Shown: in pieces, positions 22,803 through 33,692 of the stretch
Position numbering within the stretch: the stretch's first letter is position 1
Layout: each line of letters starts with the position of its first letter
Source of the DNA: Desulfotignum sp.
GTDB taxonomy: Bacteria > Desulfobacterota > Desulfobacteria > Desulfobacterales > Desulfobacteraceae
Direction: 5' to 3'
Assembly (NCBI GenBank): GCA_011389835.1
Contig: JAABTO010000017.1
Location: 1-33,692, forward strand
Length of the DNA stretch: 33,692 nt
The notes under the pieces: model-generated
Databases searched by the model: none
Seen by the model: only the letters and a program-made list of their open reading frames with translations
What the model was told of the DNA's origin: nothing
Program-made: the position numbers and the translations under genes

Positions 22803-23702
22803 ATGATTCGATTTGGCCTGTGCTGTGTATTCAGGGAACACCCAGTGAAATTTCGCAAAACCACGGCAGCATATCTGTCCCGGTTTCCTGAAGAGGACCA
22901 AAAAAGCCGTCTGGCCCGGCTGTGTGACGGCAATGCACAAAGCCTTTTAAAAGCCCTGACATTCTGCCACGAAAACGGGATCGGATCCTTCCGGATCAAC
23001 AGCCAGATTCTGCCGTTGAAGACCCATCCGGACACGGGGTATGACATATACGAGCTTCCCGGCTCAGAAGACATCATCGCCGCGTTCAGGGCCTGTGGTG
23101 AGTATTGCCTGACACATGACATCCGGACCACCTTCCACCCGGACCAGTTCATCATTTTGTCATCACCCAATCCGGAGGTGGTCCAAAGGTCCGTGGCAGA
23201 TCTGGTCTACCAGGCCCAGGTGGCCGAATGGGTGAATGCCGATGTGATCAACATTCATGCCGGCGGGGTTTATGGGGATAAACCATCTGCTTTATCCCGC
23301 CTGGCAGCCGTCGTTGAGACACTGCCGGATCCGGTCAGGAAAAGACTGACTTTTGAAAATGACGACAGAAGCTATACCCCCCGGGATCTGTTTCCTGTGT
23401 GCAGAGACCTCAAAATCCCCCTGGTGTATGACGTACACCACCACCGGTGCCTTCCGGACGGCCTGACAGTTGAAGCGGCCACAGAACAAAGCCTGAAAAC
23501 CTGGGACCGGGAGCCCTTGTTTCACCTGTCCTCTCCCAAAGACGGCTGGTCCGGGCCCGACCCCAGAAAGCACCATGATTATATCGACATCCATGACCTG
23601 CCCAAAGACTGGCGGTCCATGGATATTACCGTGGAAGTAGAAGCAAAGGCCAAAGAACTGGCCATAAAAAAATTGATGGCAGAACTAAAGAAGGTCCCGT
23701 GA
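22803..23702 (+). CDS. uvsE: UV damage endonuclease UvsE/UvdE-like
   Basis: MIRFGLCCVFREHPVKFRKTTAAYL...FRINSQILPLKTHP...TTFHPDQFIILSSPNPEVVQRSVADLVYQA...INIHAGGVYGDK...LTFENDDRSYTP...YDVHHHRC. Start moved to 22803. Confidence 0.88.
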   Translation: MIRFGLCCVFREHPVKFRKTTAAYLSRFPEEDQKSRLARLCDGNAQSLLKALTFCHENGIGSFRINSQILPLKTHPDTGYDIYELPGSEDIIAAFRACGEYCLTHDIRTTFHPDQFIILSSPNPEVVQRSVADLVYQAQVAEWVNADVINIHAGGVYGDKPSALSRLAAVVETLPDPVRKRLTFENDDRSYTPRDLFPVCRDLKIPLVYDVHHHRCLPDGLTVEAATEQSLKTWDREPLFHLSSPKDGWSGPDPRKHHDYIDIHDLPKDWRSMDITVEVEAKAKELAIKKLMAELKKVP

Positions 23703-23727
23703 AACCCGGTCTCCTGAGTATTGACGC

Positions 23728-24196
23728 TTATTCCATGACATACCGGGGATAGGACTGTTTGGCGGCCCGGGCTGCCTCCGGATCGATATTCAGGGTCAGG
23801 AGCCACTGCCGCTGGTCGGTCAGGCCCGGCACCGCGCCTCTTTCCGGTTCGATGACCCAGCCGGCCCCGCCGAAATCCTCTCCCGGCACATTGGGGCCGT
23901 TGAAGTTGGAGGACAGGCAGAAGGCCCCTGCCACAATGGCGGCGGCCCGACCGCCGGGCACCCAGATATCCTCTTTGGATGCAGGTGTGGCACGGGGACA
24001 TATCAGAATATCCACCCCTTGATTCTTGTATTCCCTGGCCCGGTCCGTGAACCACAGGTCCGTGCAGATCATGAAACCGATGCGCACCCCGTCCACCTGG
24101 ACCGCCTGGAACCGGCCGTTGCCCCGCTGGTACCAGCGGGCCTCGAAATAGCCGGGTCCAGTTGTTGGGCAGTTCACATACGGTCACCTTCATCAT
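23728..24196 (-). pseudogene. Carbon-nitrogen hydrolase (nitrilase) pseudogene with apparent internal deletion
   Basis: C-terminal nitrilase half (FMICTDLWFTDRAREYKNQGVDILICPRATP...GRAAAIVAGAFCLSSNFNG) preceded within about 25 nt, in another frame, by an RBS and N-terminus-like MMKVTVCELPNN (ATG at 24196/24193); the usual segment between them is missing. Confidence 0.7.
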
Positions 24197-24511
24197 TTCT
24201 CCATCATTTCTCGAATTTTTTTTGTCAGACCCGGACCCGCTATCCAATGACATGATTTTTTACAGGGAACTGTCAGCTAAATCAAGCGGAAATGATTGTT
24301 GCTGTGCCGTTAATCGACACTTACCGGGATCGCCAGTAACATTGACTTTTATAAAAAGGTGTGAAAATAAACAATTTCAGGACGGGAATATTGACACCCA
24401 TTTTCTGGAACAGATGGACAAGTTGGAAAAAACTGTCCTGATGCCAATAGCGGTTATGCCCTGACGGCACCATCACCATCCGGCGGCATCACCGATATAA
24501 GGAATTTTAAT

Positions 24512-27729: not shown

Positions 27730-30198
27730 TCAGGAAACCACAAAGTCATTGGTTTTGATCAGTCCGGGGATGGATACCACGGGGTGACCGTTTTCTGAAA
27801 TCCGGGTGCCGTCCGGAAACTTAAATTCCGGTGCCATCGATGTATAATACGCCTGATCATAACAGCGCAGTTCCACGCTTACGGCGTCTCCCTGCCGGAT
27901 CATGAAGGATGTCAGTCCATAGTCCGCTTCTCCTAAAGGCGTGGCAATGATGTACCGGGGGATTTCACGGCCGGACCCTTCTCTTCGGACCATGGTGGCG
28001 ATATCCACGACATCGTAGGAATCGACGGGATGGGCCGCGTTCCAGGATATCTGGACGGGCAGGCCGGCCACGTAAAGGTGATGGAATTCGATGCCGGCGC
28101 ATCTCAGGGCATAGGCCAGGTCATGAATCGAAGTGTCTTTGTCGTTGACCCCGCCCAGCAGCGGCACATTGGCATACACGGTGATGCCCTTGTGGTTCAG
28201 GCGGCGGGTGACAAGCGTGTGATCCGGAGTCAGATCCGATGTCGTCACAAACCAGGTTTCGATTTCCAGCCGCAGCGGTGACACCACGGATAGTTTGTTC
28301 ACCTCTCCGAGAAAACCGACCCTGGCGTCTGTGAACGCCATGGGATCTGTAGCCAGTGTCATGGAGCAGATGCGCAGGGCATTGACATGGGGGATACGCG
28401 ACATCCGGTCTGCGATCCGGCGGATATCAAAAAGATAGTCCAAAGCTTCGCCGTTGATCAGCACATCCGTGATCCGGGGATCATCGGCAATATAGGCGAA
28501 TTCAGCCTCATCGGCCCAGGGCAGAATGCTCACCCGGGTTTCATGGAGGCGTGACACGCCATCCAGGCTGGTATCCACGATGGAACCTGTGTTCTGGACG
28601 GTGTCAACCAAAGCGGTTTTCAGCCGATCCACTTCCTCGGGCAGCGCGTCTGGGTTGACCGGTGCGGTTTTTTCGGGCCGGTTGCCTACCAGATAGTCGT
28701 CATTGCCGATTTTTGCCATGTACTGAATATCAATGGTGCCTTCGGCGTTGACCCGCACATTGGTCAATGAATTGGCCAGGGGTGCAAACGCCTTGAAATA
28801 TTCCGGGGTGTAGGGGGTGCGGATCCAGACGAAATAATCCTGGTTTTCCACTTTTTCCACGGCCCATCCGCTGGAGAACCAGTCCATTTTGCCGATGGGG
28901 GTGGCTGTGCAGATCCGGGGGATCACCCGGTCAGACAGGTGTGCCCGCAGATGCAGGGCGATATCGATGCCGTCGGACAGCGGTTTCCAGTAAATGGAGT
29001 TGCCGTGAATGGGGCTGCACGGGATATAGATATAGTGCAGCTCGGCCCCGGCTCCCCGCAGCAGGCCGAACAGTCTCACCAGCTCCGGGCCGGTGTCGTT
29101 GCAGTCGCTTAAAAACGGGGTCTGGACATACACGGCCACCCCATGGTTCACCAGGTCGGTGATGATGTCCAGGCTTTCCGGGGAGACTTCGTCGGGATGG
29201 ATGAAATGGGTGGCCACTTCAATACGTTTGCCGACCCGGTTCAGTTCCAGGCTTTTCTGTTTGATGTATTTGAGATATTCCCCTTCTTTTTCCAGAAACA
29301 GGTCCGGATAATAGGCAATGGAACGGGTGGCCAAACGCAGGGTCTGGACATGATCCACCTCCTTGAGTCCGTCAATGGCGGCTTCCATGTTTTTTCTGTT
29401 CAGAAAAGGATCGCCCCCGGTAATCACGATTTCCTTGATAGCCGGGGATGAGCGCACATGATCCACGGCCTTCATCACCGCTTTGGGGGTGGGGTTTTTT
29501 TCGTTCCGGGAATCCTTGTGTTTCCGGAAACAGAACCGGCAGTAGACCGGGCAGCTCATGTTGAGCAGAAAGATCACCCGGTTCTGATACATCTGTTCCA
29601 GGAGCCCCTCATGGAACTGGCCGATCCAGGTGTTGGTGTGACCGACATTGTCCAGTTCCTCCACAAACGGCAGATACTGGTAAGCCACGTCCCTGGAAAC
29701 CATCATCTGCCGGATGGTGTGCCGGGACAGGCGTACCGGATATTTTTCAATGACCTTCTGGATATCATCCCGATCGGATTCCGGGATGTTGTGGTTGGTC
29801 AGGGAGATGAGCTGGTCCGTATTTCTGACCGACACATATCCGTGGCCGGGAATCACCTGTTCCAGAAAGGCCACCAGCAGAATATGGGGCAGGGTCACAC
29901 CGTTCAGTTCCAGCGTCTGACCGTCGCCTGCGGCAATGGCGGATAGAACGGTTTTAAAAAAATCTTCAGGATACCCTTCAAACCCTGTGGCAGCCAGCAG
30001 ATTCTCCCATTTGGCCTGGCCACTGCCCTGTTTGATGATATCGGCGAATTCGCTGCCGCAGAACTGGGCATTGCCGTATATTTCCAGAAATGTCCGGGCT
30101 CCTTCCTCCAGTCGGGAAAGCAGCACTGTTTTTTGTTCCCCGGAATATTCGAACCGGATGTCCAGGGAGGTGTCTGATATGTTTCTGTCTGTTTTCAT
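27730..30198 (-). CDS. Tandem KamA-like radical SAM protein (822 aa): N-terminal half with CxxxCxxC, C-terminal half a degenerate copy
   Basis: MKTDRNISDTS... start at 30198. First domain has MSCPVYCRFCFRKHKD, VITGGDPFLNRKNME, ATPIGKMDWF; second has VLINGEALDYLFDIRR, ATPLGEADYG. The track start at 30399 overlaps the upstream ORF and is unlikely. Confidence 0.9.
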   Translation of the reverse strand: MKTDRNISDTSLDIRFEYSGEQKTVLLSRLEEGARTFLEIYGNAQFCGSEFADIIKQGSGQAKWENLLAATGFEGYPEDFFKTVLSAIAAGDGQTLELNGVTLPHILLVAFLEQVIPGHGYVSVRNTDQLISLTNHNIPESDRDDIQKVIEKYPVRLSRHTIRQMMVSRDVAYQYLPFVEELDNVGHTNTWIGQFHEGLLEQMYQNRVIFLLNMSCPVYCRFCFRKHKDSRNEKNPTPKAVMKAVDHVRSSPAIKEIVITGGDPFLNRKNMEAAIDGLKEVDHVQTLRLATRSIAYYPDLFLEKEGEYLKYIKQKSLELNRVGKRIEVATHFIHPDEVSPESLDIITDLVNHGVAVYVQTPFLSDCNDTGPELVRLFGLLRGAGAELHYIYIPCSPIHGNSIYWKPLSDGIDIALHLRAHLSDRVIPRICTATPIGKMDWFSSGWAVEKVENQDYFVWIRTPYTPEYFKAFAPLANSLTNVRVNAEGTIDIQYMAKIGNDDYLVGNRPEKTAPVNPDALPEEVDRLKTALVDTVQNTGSIVDTSLDGVSRLHETRVSILPWADEAEFAYIADDPRITDVLINGEALDYLFDIRRIADRMSRIPHVNALRICSMTLATDPMAFTDARVGFLGEVNKLSVVSPLRLEIETWFVTTSDLTPDHTLVTRRLNHKGITVYANVPLLGGVNDKDTSIHDLAYALRCAGIEFHHLYVAGLPVQISWNAAHPVDSYDVVDIATMVRREGSGREIPRYIIATPLGEADYGLTSFMIRQGDAVSVELRCYDQAYYTSMAPEFKFPDGTRISENGHPVVSIPGLIKTNDFVVS

Positions 30199-30199
30199 G

Positions 30200-30523
30200 T
30201 TACGCCTCTTTTGCCTTGTATAAATAATAGACCGTTTCTCTGGGAAAACCGTATCCCATGACCTGGCCCAAAACTTCATCTTCATTGCCCGTCCCGATGC
30301 ACACCACCAGATACTCTCTTTGAAGGCCTTCGTCCACCACCTTTTTCCAGGTAAAGGCGTTGGCTTCAAAATAGGCATATGCCATGTGAGACGGATCAAA
30401 AATGGATTCTTCTCCCAGTGTCAAATCGTTTTCAAAAATGATGTAGCTGGCCCCTGGATCCAGCGTCTTTTTGATCCCCATGAAACTGCCGTGGATGGGG
30501 CGCTCATGTAACGGCTTTGTCAC
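30200..30523 (-). CDS. Conserved-looking 107-aa protein of unknown function
   Basis: MTKPLHERPIHGSFMGIKKTLDPGASYIIFENDLTLGEESIFDPSHMAYAYFEANAFTWKKVVDEG...; probable GTG start; stop is 1 nt from the KamA-like ATG, indicating coupling. Confidence 0.65.
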   Translation of the reverse strand: MTKPLHERPIHGSFMGIKKTLDPGASYIIFENDLTLGEESIFDPSHMAYAYFEANAFTWKKVVDEGLQREYLVVCIGTGNEDEVLGQVMGYGFPRETVYYLYKAKEA

Positions 30524-30624: not shown

Positions 30625-31722
30625 TTATTGCTTCAACAATCGGCAATGGAACGGATCCACCCGGATATAAACCTCTTCTCCCCGGCGATACGGGGTTCGT
30701 TTGACAAAATTGATCACATGCAGCAGCTGACCGTCGGCAATTTCCACGAAATAACTGACCTCTCCCCCCATATAGCTGCGGTCCTTGATTTTGCCGAAAA
30801 AATAATTCATCCCTTCTTCTTTGATGAAATCTTCTTTATTCCCCAGGGTCATCTTCTGCGCCCGGATTACGATTTCAGCGTTTTCTGACACCTCGAATTC
30901 CCCCACCGGGCTGGCCAGGCAGGTGCTGCCGTCCGCCAGTTCCACCTCATAATTTCCGTTTTTACGGGTTTTCACCTGTGCTTTCAGAAAATTGGAATGG
31001 CCCAGAAAATCCGCCACAAAATGGTTGATAGAATTGTTATAGACCTCTTCAGGCTCTCCCTGCTGCTGGATAAAGCCTTCTTTCATCACCACCACCTTGT
31101 CGGACATGGACAATGCTTCTCTCTGGTCATGGGTGACAAAAATCGTGGTGACCCCCAACTCCATCTGGAGATTGTCAATCTCCCGGCGCATGTCTTCTCT
31201 CAGGTTCTCATCCAGGGCCGACAACGGTTCATCCATGAGCAGCACGTCCGGCTCGATCACAATGGCCCGGGCCAGGGCGATGCGCTGCTGCTGGCCGCCT
31301 GACAGCTGTGAGGGCATCCGGCTTCCCACCCCCGGCAACCGAACGGTTTCCAAAGCTTTTTCCACCTTTTCTTTCATCACTGTTTTGGACACATCCCGGT
31401 ATTTGAGGCCAAAGGCCACATTGTCAAAAATCGTTTTATGGGGAAACAACGCATAGTTCTGGAATATCATGCCCAGGTTACGCTTGTGGATGGGTGTGTC
31501 GTTAATGCGCTTTCCCTTGATGAAGATATCCCCCCGGGTAGGGGGTTCAAGTCCGGCCAGCATCCGGAGCAAGGTGGTTTTCCCGCAACCGGAGGGGCCC
31601 AGCAGTGTAACAAAGGATCCTTCGGGGATATCCAGATCCATGGGCTGCACTGCCACCAGATCACCAAACCGTTTTTCAATGCCCTTGAATCTGACAAAGG
31701 CCGGGTCTTTTGCGTGTGCCAA
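30625..31722 (-). CDS. potA-like: Spermidine/putrescine-type ABC transporter ATP-binding protein
   Basis: 365 aa; LLGPSGCGKTTLLRMLAGLE, QLSGGQQQRIALARAIVIEPDVLLMDEPLSALD, C-terminal TOBE region. Confidence 0.92.
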   Translation of the reverse strand: MAHAKDPAFVRFKGIEKRFGDLVAVQPMDLDIPEGSFVTLLGPSGCGKTTLLRMLAGLEPPTRGDIFIKGKRINDTPIHKRNLGMIFQNYALFPHKTIFDNVAFGLKYRDVSKTVMKEKVEKALETVRLPGVGSRMPSQLSGGQQQRIALARAIVIEPDVLLMDEPLSALDENLREDMRREIDNLQMELGVTTIFVTHDQREALSMSDKVVVMKEGFIQQQGEPEEVYNNSINHFVADFLGHSNFLKAQVKTRKNGNYEVELADGSTCLASPVGEFEVSENAEIVIRAQKMTLGNKEDFIKEEGMNYFFGKIKDRSYMGGEVSYFVEIADGQLLHVINFVKRTPYRRGEEVYIRVDPFHCRLLKQ

Positions 31723-31809: not shown

Positions 31810-32970
31810 TTAGGCACCGGCCATAATCCGGTCCCATTTTTCCGCCCATTCCAGCTGGTGTTTGTTCCAGTAGGCCGGATCCGCAAACAGATATCCATTG
31901 AGCTTGCCCGTGGGATCAAACGCCGGCAGTTTTTTAACATCCTCAGGCATCTCCACTTTGGTGGGGTCCAGTGCCGGCGGATATTTCTGTCCCTGGGCCA
32001 CGGCAATGGCCGCATCGGGTTCCAGCATGAAATTGAGCAGCTGCTGGGCCACTTCCAGGTCCGTGCCCTTGAGCACATACATGTATTCCATCCATGAATA
32101 GGTGCCGTCCGGGGCCAGGTATCCGATGGGGTGTCCTTGCTCCTGGAGAGCCGCTACCCGACCGGACCATGCCACAGTGGCGGAAATTTCACCATTGGCC
32201 AGCAGACTCATGAGTTCTGATCCGGATGCCCAGTATTTTTTCATCATGCCCCGCTGTTCTGTCAACACATCCCATACCGCATCCACATCCGTGATGTTAT
32301 TGGGGCTTTGACCGGTGTGCAGGGCCGCGTACCACATGTTGGTTCTGAAATCCCCGCCCCAGGAGCCCAGTTTGCCTTTCAGGCTTTTGTCATAGAGCAG
32401 AGATGCGCCTAGTTTTTCCGCTTTTTCCTTGGAAATATCGTTTGTGTTATAAGCGATCCCGGTCTGGCCAAGGTCATAGGGAACTGCTGACAAAGTCCCA
32501 TTTGTGATGCCCCGCAGGGTGTCGGTCATTTTGGTCATGACATTCTTGAGATTGGGAATTTTGCTTTCATCCAGGACCACACCGAATCCCAGGTCTGTGT
32601 ACCGGGCATAATCATACACCGCACTCAGATGGGCGATATTGAATTCCCCTCCGGGCGGATAGGAGGCTTTGACCTGGGTTAAAAACGCATCCATACCGGT
32701 GAAGGCCGCATCAATGACCTCGATGCCGGTGGCCTTGGTAAAGGGATCAAAGGCAAATTTACGCAATGCTTCTGATGTGGTGCCTCCCCAGGAATGACAG
32801 GTAATGGATTTGCTGGCAAAGGCATTGCCCATCAGACCGAATGGTCCGCCTGCCAACCCTAAAGCGGCGCCTGCAATGCCGGCGAATTTGACAAAATCCC
32901 GCCGGGTGATGTTTCCTTCCAGATAGTTTTGATACACATCATCCAGCCGTTTTTTCAATTCTTCTCCCAT
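31810..32970 (-). CDS. potD-like: Spermidine/putrescine-type extracellular substrate-binding protein with Tat-like signal
   Basis: 386 aa; NITRRDFVKFAGIAGAALGLAGGPFGLMGNAFA signal, then ITCHSWGGTTSEALRKFAFDPFTKATGIEV and VPYDLGQTGIAYNT typical of PotD/family 1 SBPs. Confidence 0.88.
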   Translation of the reverse strand: MGEELKKRLDDVYQNYLEGNITRRDFVKFAGIAGAALGLAGGPFGLMGNAFASKSITCHSWGGTTSEALRKFAFDPFTKATGIEVIDAAFTGMDAFLTQVKASYPPGGEFNIAHLSAVYDYARYTDLGFGVVLDESKIPNLKNVMTKMTDTLRGITNGTLSAVPYDLGQTGIAYNTNDISKEKAEKLGASLLYDKSLKGKLGSWGGDFRTNMWYAALHTGQSPNNITDVDAVWDVLTEQRGMMKKYWASGSELMSLLANGEISATVAWSGRVAALQEQGHPIGYLAPDGTYSWMEYMYVLKGTDLEVAQQLLNFMLEPDAAIAVAQGQKYPPALDPTKVEMPEDVKKLPAFDPTGKLNGYLFADPAYWNKHQLEWAEKWDRIMAGA

Positions 32971-33045: not shown

Positions 33046-33692
33046 TCAGGGGGTGTTTCCCCTGGCAAATCGCCGTGCCACATAGCCTGCCGCCAGGGGA
33101 ATCGAAATGGTCAACACGATCATGACCGCTCCCAGGGCATTGATTTCAGGACTGATGGAGGTTCTGAGCATACTGAAAATCTGGACCGGCACCGTCTGGT
33201 TCTGGGCCGTTGCCCAGAACAGGGTGGCGGTGACATCATCAAATGAAATGGTAAAGGCAAACAGCATGCCCGCAAAAATGGCAGGGGCCAGCAATGGAAA
33301 GGTGATTTCCCTGAATGTCTGAAACGGGCTGGCCCCCAGGGACAGGGCTGCTTCTTCATATTCGCGCTTGATTCCCACCAGCCGGGCCTGGACAATGAGC
33401 AGCACATAGGGCAGGGTCAACACCACATGGCCGATGAGCAGTAGTGCAAAATTTTTAGGCTGCTGCAGCCACCGGATGAAAAGCAGCAGGGCCACACCCA
33501 GGATCACTTCCGGGATCATGATCGGCGCAATGAGTATGGTGTTTAAAAACTCCTTGCCCTTGAATTCATACCGGATGAATGCCAGGGCCGCAGGCACACC
33601 GATGGCGGTGGAAAATATGGCCGTCAAAGACCCCAGCACCAGAGAATTTTTAAAGGCATCCAGGATGGTGGAGTTCTGAGACAGCTTGACAA
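33046..33692 (-). CDS. potC-like: Spermidine/putrescine-type ABC transporter permease (PotC-like), N-terminus beyond the window
   Basis: Frame stays open to the right edge (VKLSQNSTILDAFKNSLVLGSLTAIFSTAIGVPAALAF...); EAA-loop EYEEAALSLGASPFQTFREITFPLLAPAI. Confidence 0.88.
   Translation of the reverse strand, partial: VKLSQNSTILDAFKNSLVLGSLTAIFSTAIGVPAALAFIRYEFKGKEFLNTILIAPIMIPEVILGVALLLFIRWLQQPKNFALLLIGHVVLTLPYVLLIVQARLVGIKREYEEAALSLGASPFQTFREITFPLLAPAIFAGMLFAFTISFDDVTATLFWATAQNQTVPVQIFSMLRTSISPEINALGAVMIVLTISIPLAAGYVARRFARGNTP

Follow-up and report, generated by a model that had tools for sequence, protein, structure and literature searches.

A tandem KamA-like protein of Desulfobacterales in which an intact radical-SAM barrel is fused to a predicted pseudoenzyme barrel

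The window, by which we mean the whole 33,692-nucleotide stretch analysed here (contig JAABTO010000017.1, Desulfotignum sp., assembly GCA_011389835.1), encodes an 822-residue KamA-like protein with two barrels of the same family in one chain. The first retains the radical S-adenosylmethionine (SAM) and pyridoxal 5′-phosphate (PLP) positions of a KamA aminomutase, and the second keeps the fold and has lost both cofactor sites. The gene (27730..30198, minus strand, 822 codons) starts at the ATG at 30198 and its TGA ends at 27730; a sequence-only reading of the same DNA, which gave no strand, had proposed an active/pseudo-enzyme pair arising by internal duplication. In the AlphaFold model, a helical N-terminal region (residues 1-199, 29602..30198; 51% mean family identity) precedes the first barrel only (residues 200-445, 28864..29601). 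The latter is followed by a post-barrel extension (residues 446-512, 28663..28863; WIRTPYTPEYFKAFAP), which hhalign matches to residues ~772-800 of the C-terminal half (CYDQAYYTSMAP), by a linker that is variable in the family alignment (residues 513-544, 28567..28662) and by the second barrel (residues 545-822, 27733..28566), which has no conserved cysteine; all of these features lie on the minus strand.

Chance similarity cannot account for the internal repeat. Pfam recognises only the first radical-SAM domain of the full-length protein (5.1e-10) and gives zero matches to residues 530-822. The NCBIfam KamA models match both halves, and the C-terminal half taken alone is hit by those for glutamate 2,3-aminomutase (51 bits, E 7.9e-14) and the general KamA family (43.8 bits, E 1.6e-11). 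Used as a sequence query, this half retrieves its own N-terminal partner at E 2.9e-20, and profile-profile alignment of the two gives a probability of 99.5% (E 6.6e-23, 251 columns, 24% identity), which bears out the alignment that had been made by eye. The C-terminal profile also finds lysine 2,3-aminomutase (2a5h) by sequence (E 1.3e-16), and the same structure is its top PDB match by fold (E 6.8e-12), its top PDB matches being radical-SAM barrels; the N-terminal half likewise matches 2a5h in Foldseek. AlphaFold models the whole protein with a mean predicted local distance difference test (pLDDT) score of 89.5 and a predicted template modelling (pTM) score of 0.91, and the C-terminal half alone with 92.9 and 0.90, respectively. 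Both halves thus have the (beta-alpha)6 barrel fold of 2a5h, and the KamA fold of the second half, on which the proposed pairing depends, is seen in the AlphaFold model and in the fold and profile matches alike.

The first barrel keeps the radical-SAM and PLP positions of a KamA enzyme. Residues R207, C216, C220, C223, R225 and K437 are invariant in the 69 family members used for residue counts, R225 and R207 being the equivalents of R134 and R116 of lysine 2,3-aminomutase. The C216-x3-C220-x2-C223 cluster motif (29530..29553), which follows beta1 in the N-terminal half of all 69, and the ATPIGK437MDW segment are exactly where the sequence-only reading had placed them. K437 (28888..28890), present in 69/69 members in a TPIGK context resembling the TP(L/Y)GK or KIGK of other KamAs, is assigned to the KamA PLP-lysine position because TPLGK and KIGK sequences with the same short loop align there; its role in PLP binding is predicted by homology.

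In the second barrel, the corresponding positions tell of loss, in a somewhat different manner than had been proposed. The three cysteines are indeed absent, and no conserved CxxxCxxC occurs in residues 540-822 across the fused homologues; they were, however, not replaced by point mutation. In the first barrel, 26 residues (212-237), carrying C216, C220 and C223, connect beta1 to alpha1, whereas the second has a turn of 5 residues (559-563, 28510..28524) at the place of the cluster/SAM loop in both the AlphaFold model and the alignment; therefore, the cluster loop was deleted rather than mutated. The change of the GK lysine to GE is conserved: the position is occupied by E757 in the window (27928..27930) and by Glu or Asp in 68/68 members that have it. 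Taken together, the loop deletion and the acidic residue at the lysine position indicate that both cofactor sites are gone from the second barrel. The change of GGD to NGE, by contrast, is a feature of the window sequence that its homologues do not conserve, and it is best disregarded. With its fold kept, its catalytic residues lost and selection retained (see below), the C-terminal half qualifies, as judged from sequence, as a pseudoenzyme. It also has its own set of polar residues that are invariant or nearly so (57-68 members), namely R609, E645, E647 (or D), H660, N677, E704, Q716, S742-G743-R744-E745, E/D757 and D759; H707 is absent from the deepest members of the family.

By fold and motif the protein is KamA-like, and it is not an AblA, glutamate or arginine aminomutase. 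It scores 154.7 bits with both halves and 114.5 with the N-terminal half against the KamA family model TIGR00238 (cut-off 199.2), 152.8 against the AblA model TIGR03820 (cut-off 525.4), and 144.9 and 146.6 against the glutamate and arginine 2,3-aminomutase models (cut-offs 650 and 600). Asp293 and Asp330 of lysine 2,3-aminomutase (2a5h), which we take to bind the epsilon-ammonium group of the substrate, correspond to S395 and A432 in most tandem members, and the Asp pair of AblA is accordingly missing. In a few paralogues these two positions change jointly (E/S, E/S and H/A); they line a putative side-chain pocket and might behave as specificity positions. The combinations S/A, E/S and H/A point to several substrates, and the family may hold new aminomutase specificities.

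We consider it probable that the tandem protein is a SAM- and PLP-dependent aminomutase for an imported amino acid, with the second barrel as a built-in, non-catalytic partner; the catalysis, the substrate and what the second barrel does are inferred as follows. Tandem duplication inside one chain would have produced the two-barrel protein, whose first barrel, by homology, would act as a radical-SAM, PLP-dependent aminomutase: the CxxxCxxC motif would hold the [4Fe-4S] cluster that cleaves SAM, K437 would hold PLP, and the 5′-deoxyadenosyl radical would drive a 1,2 shift of the amino group to yield a beta-amino acid. The second barrel, having lost both cofactor sites by the loop deletion and the Lys to Glu/Asp change, would be retained as a non-catalytic partner, most likely a built-in subunit that replaces a second protomer and fixes the oligomeric state, and that may brace or close the active site of the first barrel. 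The substrate is probably an amino acid imported by the co-encoded polyamine-type ATP-binding cassette (ABC) transporter, and in some genomes the product may pass to AblB. Since the second barrel is kept in paralogues with an altered pocket (S395/A432 to E/S or H/A), a structural role fits better than a substrate-specific one. Three observations weigh against this scheme: the invariant polar residues of the second barrel (e.g., R609, E645, N677 and E/D757) exceed what a passive scaffold needs; S395/A432 in place of D293/D330 fits partnership with AblB poorly, if that partnership means lysine; and AblB is missing from about half of the 13 genomes tested, including the window's own.

The polar set of the second barrel (R609, E645, N677, E704, Q716, SGRE 742-745, E/D757 and D759) would be compatible with a ligand site as well as with a newly gained activity, and this is the main rival to a built-in structural partner. 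It is possible, though distinctly less probable, that the second barrel has turned its former active site to sensing or catalysis, and so regulates the reaction of the first barrel or carries it to completion. The likelier form of this idea, which we nevertheless regard as unlikely, makes the second barrel a regulatory domain: a ligand, be it substrate, product or an effector, would bind in the old pocket and thereby switch the first barrel on or off. The near-invariance of the polar residues is what such a site would predict, and the barrel is complete and confidently predicted by AlphaFold on its own; R609, E645 and E704, however, each have a counterpart in the first barrel and could instead serve the fold or the interface.

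As to origin, internal duplication within one chain is the best reading of the sequences, in line with what had been proposed. In a tree of 45 sequences that included single-domain KamAs (AblA, arginine aminomutase, rhizobial, EpmB-like and viral-contig members), the N- and C-terminal halves form one clade with a bootstrap of 100, although long-branch attraction between the halves might contribute to this. Both halves also contain two insertions, of 8 residues ahead of beta4 and of a single residue behind beta6, neither of which occurs in the sampled single-domain KamAs, and they have several residues in common (R325/R643, E327/E645, Y357/Y675, R381/R699 and E386/E704). Over 233 positions, consensus identities are 64 between the C- and N-terminal halves, 64 between the N-terminal half and ordinary KamAs and 62 between the C-terminal half and ordinary KamAs; this measure fails to separate the three groups, and the case for duplication therefore rests on the tree and the insertions. 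The same failure could be taken to favour an origin of the second half from a different single-domain KamA joined by fusion, as could the ancestral SG before the last strand, which the C-terminal half keeps and the N-terminal half has as SD. We hold such a fusion to be rather unlikely: adding further single KamAs leaves the halves together at a bootstrap of 100, and they have the insertions and specific residues in common, again with long-branch attraction as a possible contributor.

The second barrel evolves faster than the first, yet is clearly constrained. In ten pairs of relatives the ratio of nonsynonymous to synonymous substitution rates (dN/dS) lay between 0.16 and 0.24 in the second barrel and between 0.02 and 0.11 in the first, mean family identities are 56% and 76%, respectively, and the divergence of one half tracks that of the other across the family (r = 0.85). 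Conservation of a dead copy across more than 60 genomes suggests that it does a job. One might suppose that this job is a second enzymatic activity, such as a step of the same pathway that uses a metal or acid-base catalysis, which would make the protein bifunctional; invariant His, Glu, Asp and Asn residues, strong purifying selection and the constant fusion of the second barrel would all suit such a role. We find this doubtful, more so than regulation by a ligand, given that the barrel resembles no known non-KamA enzyme (NCBIfam finds KamA models only, Pfam nothing and the PDB radical-SAM barrels) and that the deepest members lack H707.

The fusion recurs in many sulfate-reducing bacteria. 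A contig scan gave 73 loci, and 64 sequences, including the window's own, have the complete fused gene, with no conserved CxxxCxxC motif in the C-terminal half; of the 69 members used for residue counts, 68 have the residue-757 position. The fused gene occurs in Desulfospira joergensenii, Desulfocicer vacuolatum, Desulfosarcina alkanivorans, D. widdelii, Desulfopila and Desulfoferrobacter, among them isolates (Desulfospira joergensenii, Desulfocicer vacuolatum and Desulfopila) and complete genomes such as those of Desulfosarcina alkanivorans and D. widdelii. It is present in 32 of 194 genomes sampled from the window's order and in 0 of 394 other genomes sampled evenly over the phylum (395 with the window's own). 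Members outside the order come from Desulfopila, Desulfonatronum and UASB270, the last with neighbours of the same kind; the tandem KamA is thus largely confined to Desulfobacterales, with some members elsewhere. A fusion created by misassembly or misannotation, or a second half in decay, for which one could cite the draft state of the source genome (405 contigs, 88% complete) and two apparent splits (L059, with a frame break in the gene, and G203), is already refuted by 64 full-length fusions in independent assemblies, including isolates and complete genomes, by the absence of stand-alone halves other than incomplete cases at contig ends or at an N gap (in G203, the halves lie in separate frames flanking a scaffold gap of N, and the split is an artefact), and by a dN/dS well below 1.

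Several other KamA genes turned up in these searches. Desulfospira joergensenii has a second, divergent tandem KamA of 808 residues (L146:8646-11072) with H at position 395 and the pseudo-barrel kept, near a pyruvate:flavodoxin-oxidoreductase-like gene. The window's genome encodes, on contig 262 (L002), a second KamA of 442 residues that adjoins a D-Ala-D-Ala-ligase-like ATP-grasp gene; the Thioflavicoccus plasmid pTHIMO01 (L137) shows the same arrangement. As candidates for further two-barrel KamAs, long KamA reading frames (600-1230 residues; Desulfobacterota and one plasmid) were rejected, as each holds one KamA domain; in those of other Desulfobacterota (L139-L144), this domain is C-terminal and ~300 or more extra N-terminal residues are of unknown kind. 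Finally, 24 IMG/VR contigs classed as viral (L110-L133) encode a KamA relative, and those aligned are single-domain proteins of ~430-500 residues that form their own clade with a bootstrap of 100.

In the window, the tandem gene lies between two closely spaced genes on the same strand. A gene for a 107-residue protein with no Pfam or NCBIfam match (30200..30523, minus strand) ends 1 nucleotide upstream of it (TAAcATG), and one for a 220-residue M23-like protein (PF01551; 27052..27714, minus strand) follows 15 nucleotides downstream; given these spacings, the three look like one operon. The 107-residue gene is upstream of the tandem gene in 28-34 loci, in a position where some other loci have ablB, and the M23-like gene is found in 49 loci. 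The M23-like protein is similar to the central portion of the PRK06148 protein, and it may be a protein of amino-acid metabolism rather than a peptidase. Further upstream, profile matches identify the components of an ABC transporter, all on the minus strand: an ATPase nearest to the PotA/PhnT types (30625..31722), a PotD/PotF-like solute-binding protein with a twin-arginine translocation signal (31810..32970) and a permease (33046..33639). Elsewhere in the window, a nitrilase-like gene (23579-24253, minus strand) is apparently broken into two overlapping frames. Among 30 non-redundant loci with both flanks, 28 have the transporter ATPase gene and 22 the M23-like gene; the 107-residue gene follows with 16 loci, a proline-racemase-family gene with 10, IclR with 8 and AblB with 4, and no locus has both AblB and the 107-residue gene. 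Proline-racemase-family protein (18 loci), amidohydrolase, aminotransferase and AblB are recurrent neighbours that are not present in all loci, and the substrate could for this reason not be fixed from gene context.

The AblB neighbour scores 285.7 bits against TIGR03827 (cut-off 205.1) and is encoded directly upstream of the tandem gene in three loci (L051, L054 and L055); in Desulfosarcina alkanivorans, a cluster of tandem KamA, IclR, permeases, binding protein, racemase, amidohydrolase and aminotransferase has AblB at its end. AblB is above the cut-off in 7 of 13 tandem genomes, in most of the 7 beside or within the tandem cluster, and AblA in 1 of the 12 tandem genomes tested. Desulfospira joergensenii has AblB, and its only KamA matches are its two tandem genes. 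These patterns suggest that AblB may receive a beta-amino acid from a tandem KamA. Shortened AblB-like pieces lie just upstream of the tandem gene at L056:5734-5979, judged by eye, and L053:4293-4676, as if AblB were being lost there.

The second barrel goes unmarked in Pfam, and the architecture is easily missed. The tandem KamA amounts to an experiment of nature on the functions that a KamA barrel serves apart from catalysis, because both cofactor sites have been lost in one copy while the fold has been kept across Desulfobacterales and beyond, and it would show whether the lysine 2,3-aminomutase oligomer can be replaced by a built-in partner. The KamA fold itself is known; a fused active/inactive radical-SAM pair was not found in the open-access literature searched, which gave no relevant radical-SAM pseudoenzyme or tandem-domain case beyond FbiC. 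Lysine 2,3-aminomutase (KamA/AblA; TIGR03820; 2a5h), the best solved relative of both halves, shares with the tandem protein the barrel fold, CxxxCxxC, the PLP-lysine position and the counterparts of R134/R116, but the tandem protein has S395/A432, two barrels per chain and a score far below the TIGR03820 cut-off. Arginine (TIGR04468) and glutamate (TIGR04368) 2,3-aminomutases and EpmB (TIGR03821) have the same fold; the tandem protein is far below their cut-offs, and the sampled examples have one barrel each as against its two. An arginine aminomutase (L135) shares with the first barrel the PLP loop that is shorter by two residues (KIGK). FbiC, the fused CofG-CofH FO synthase, likewise has two radical-SAM barrels in one chain; unlike in FbiC, the cluster motif is not present in both barrels of the tandem KamA, being confined to the first. 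In other families, pseudoenzyme partners are inactive paralogues that are kept under selection beside an active one.
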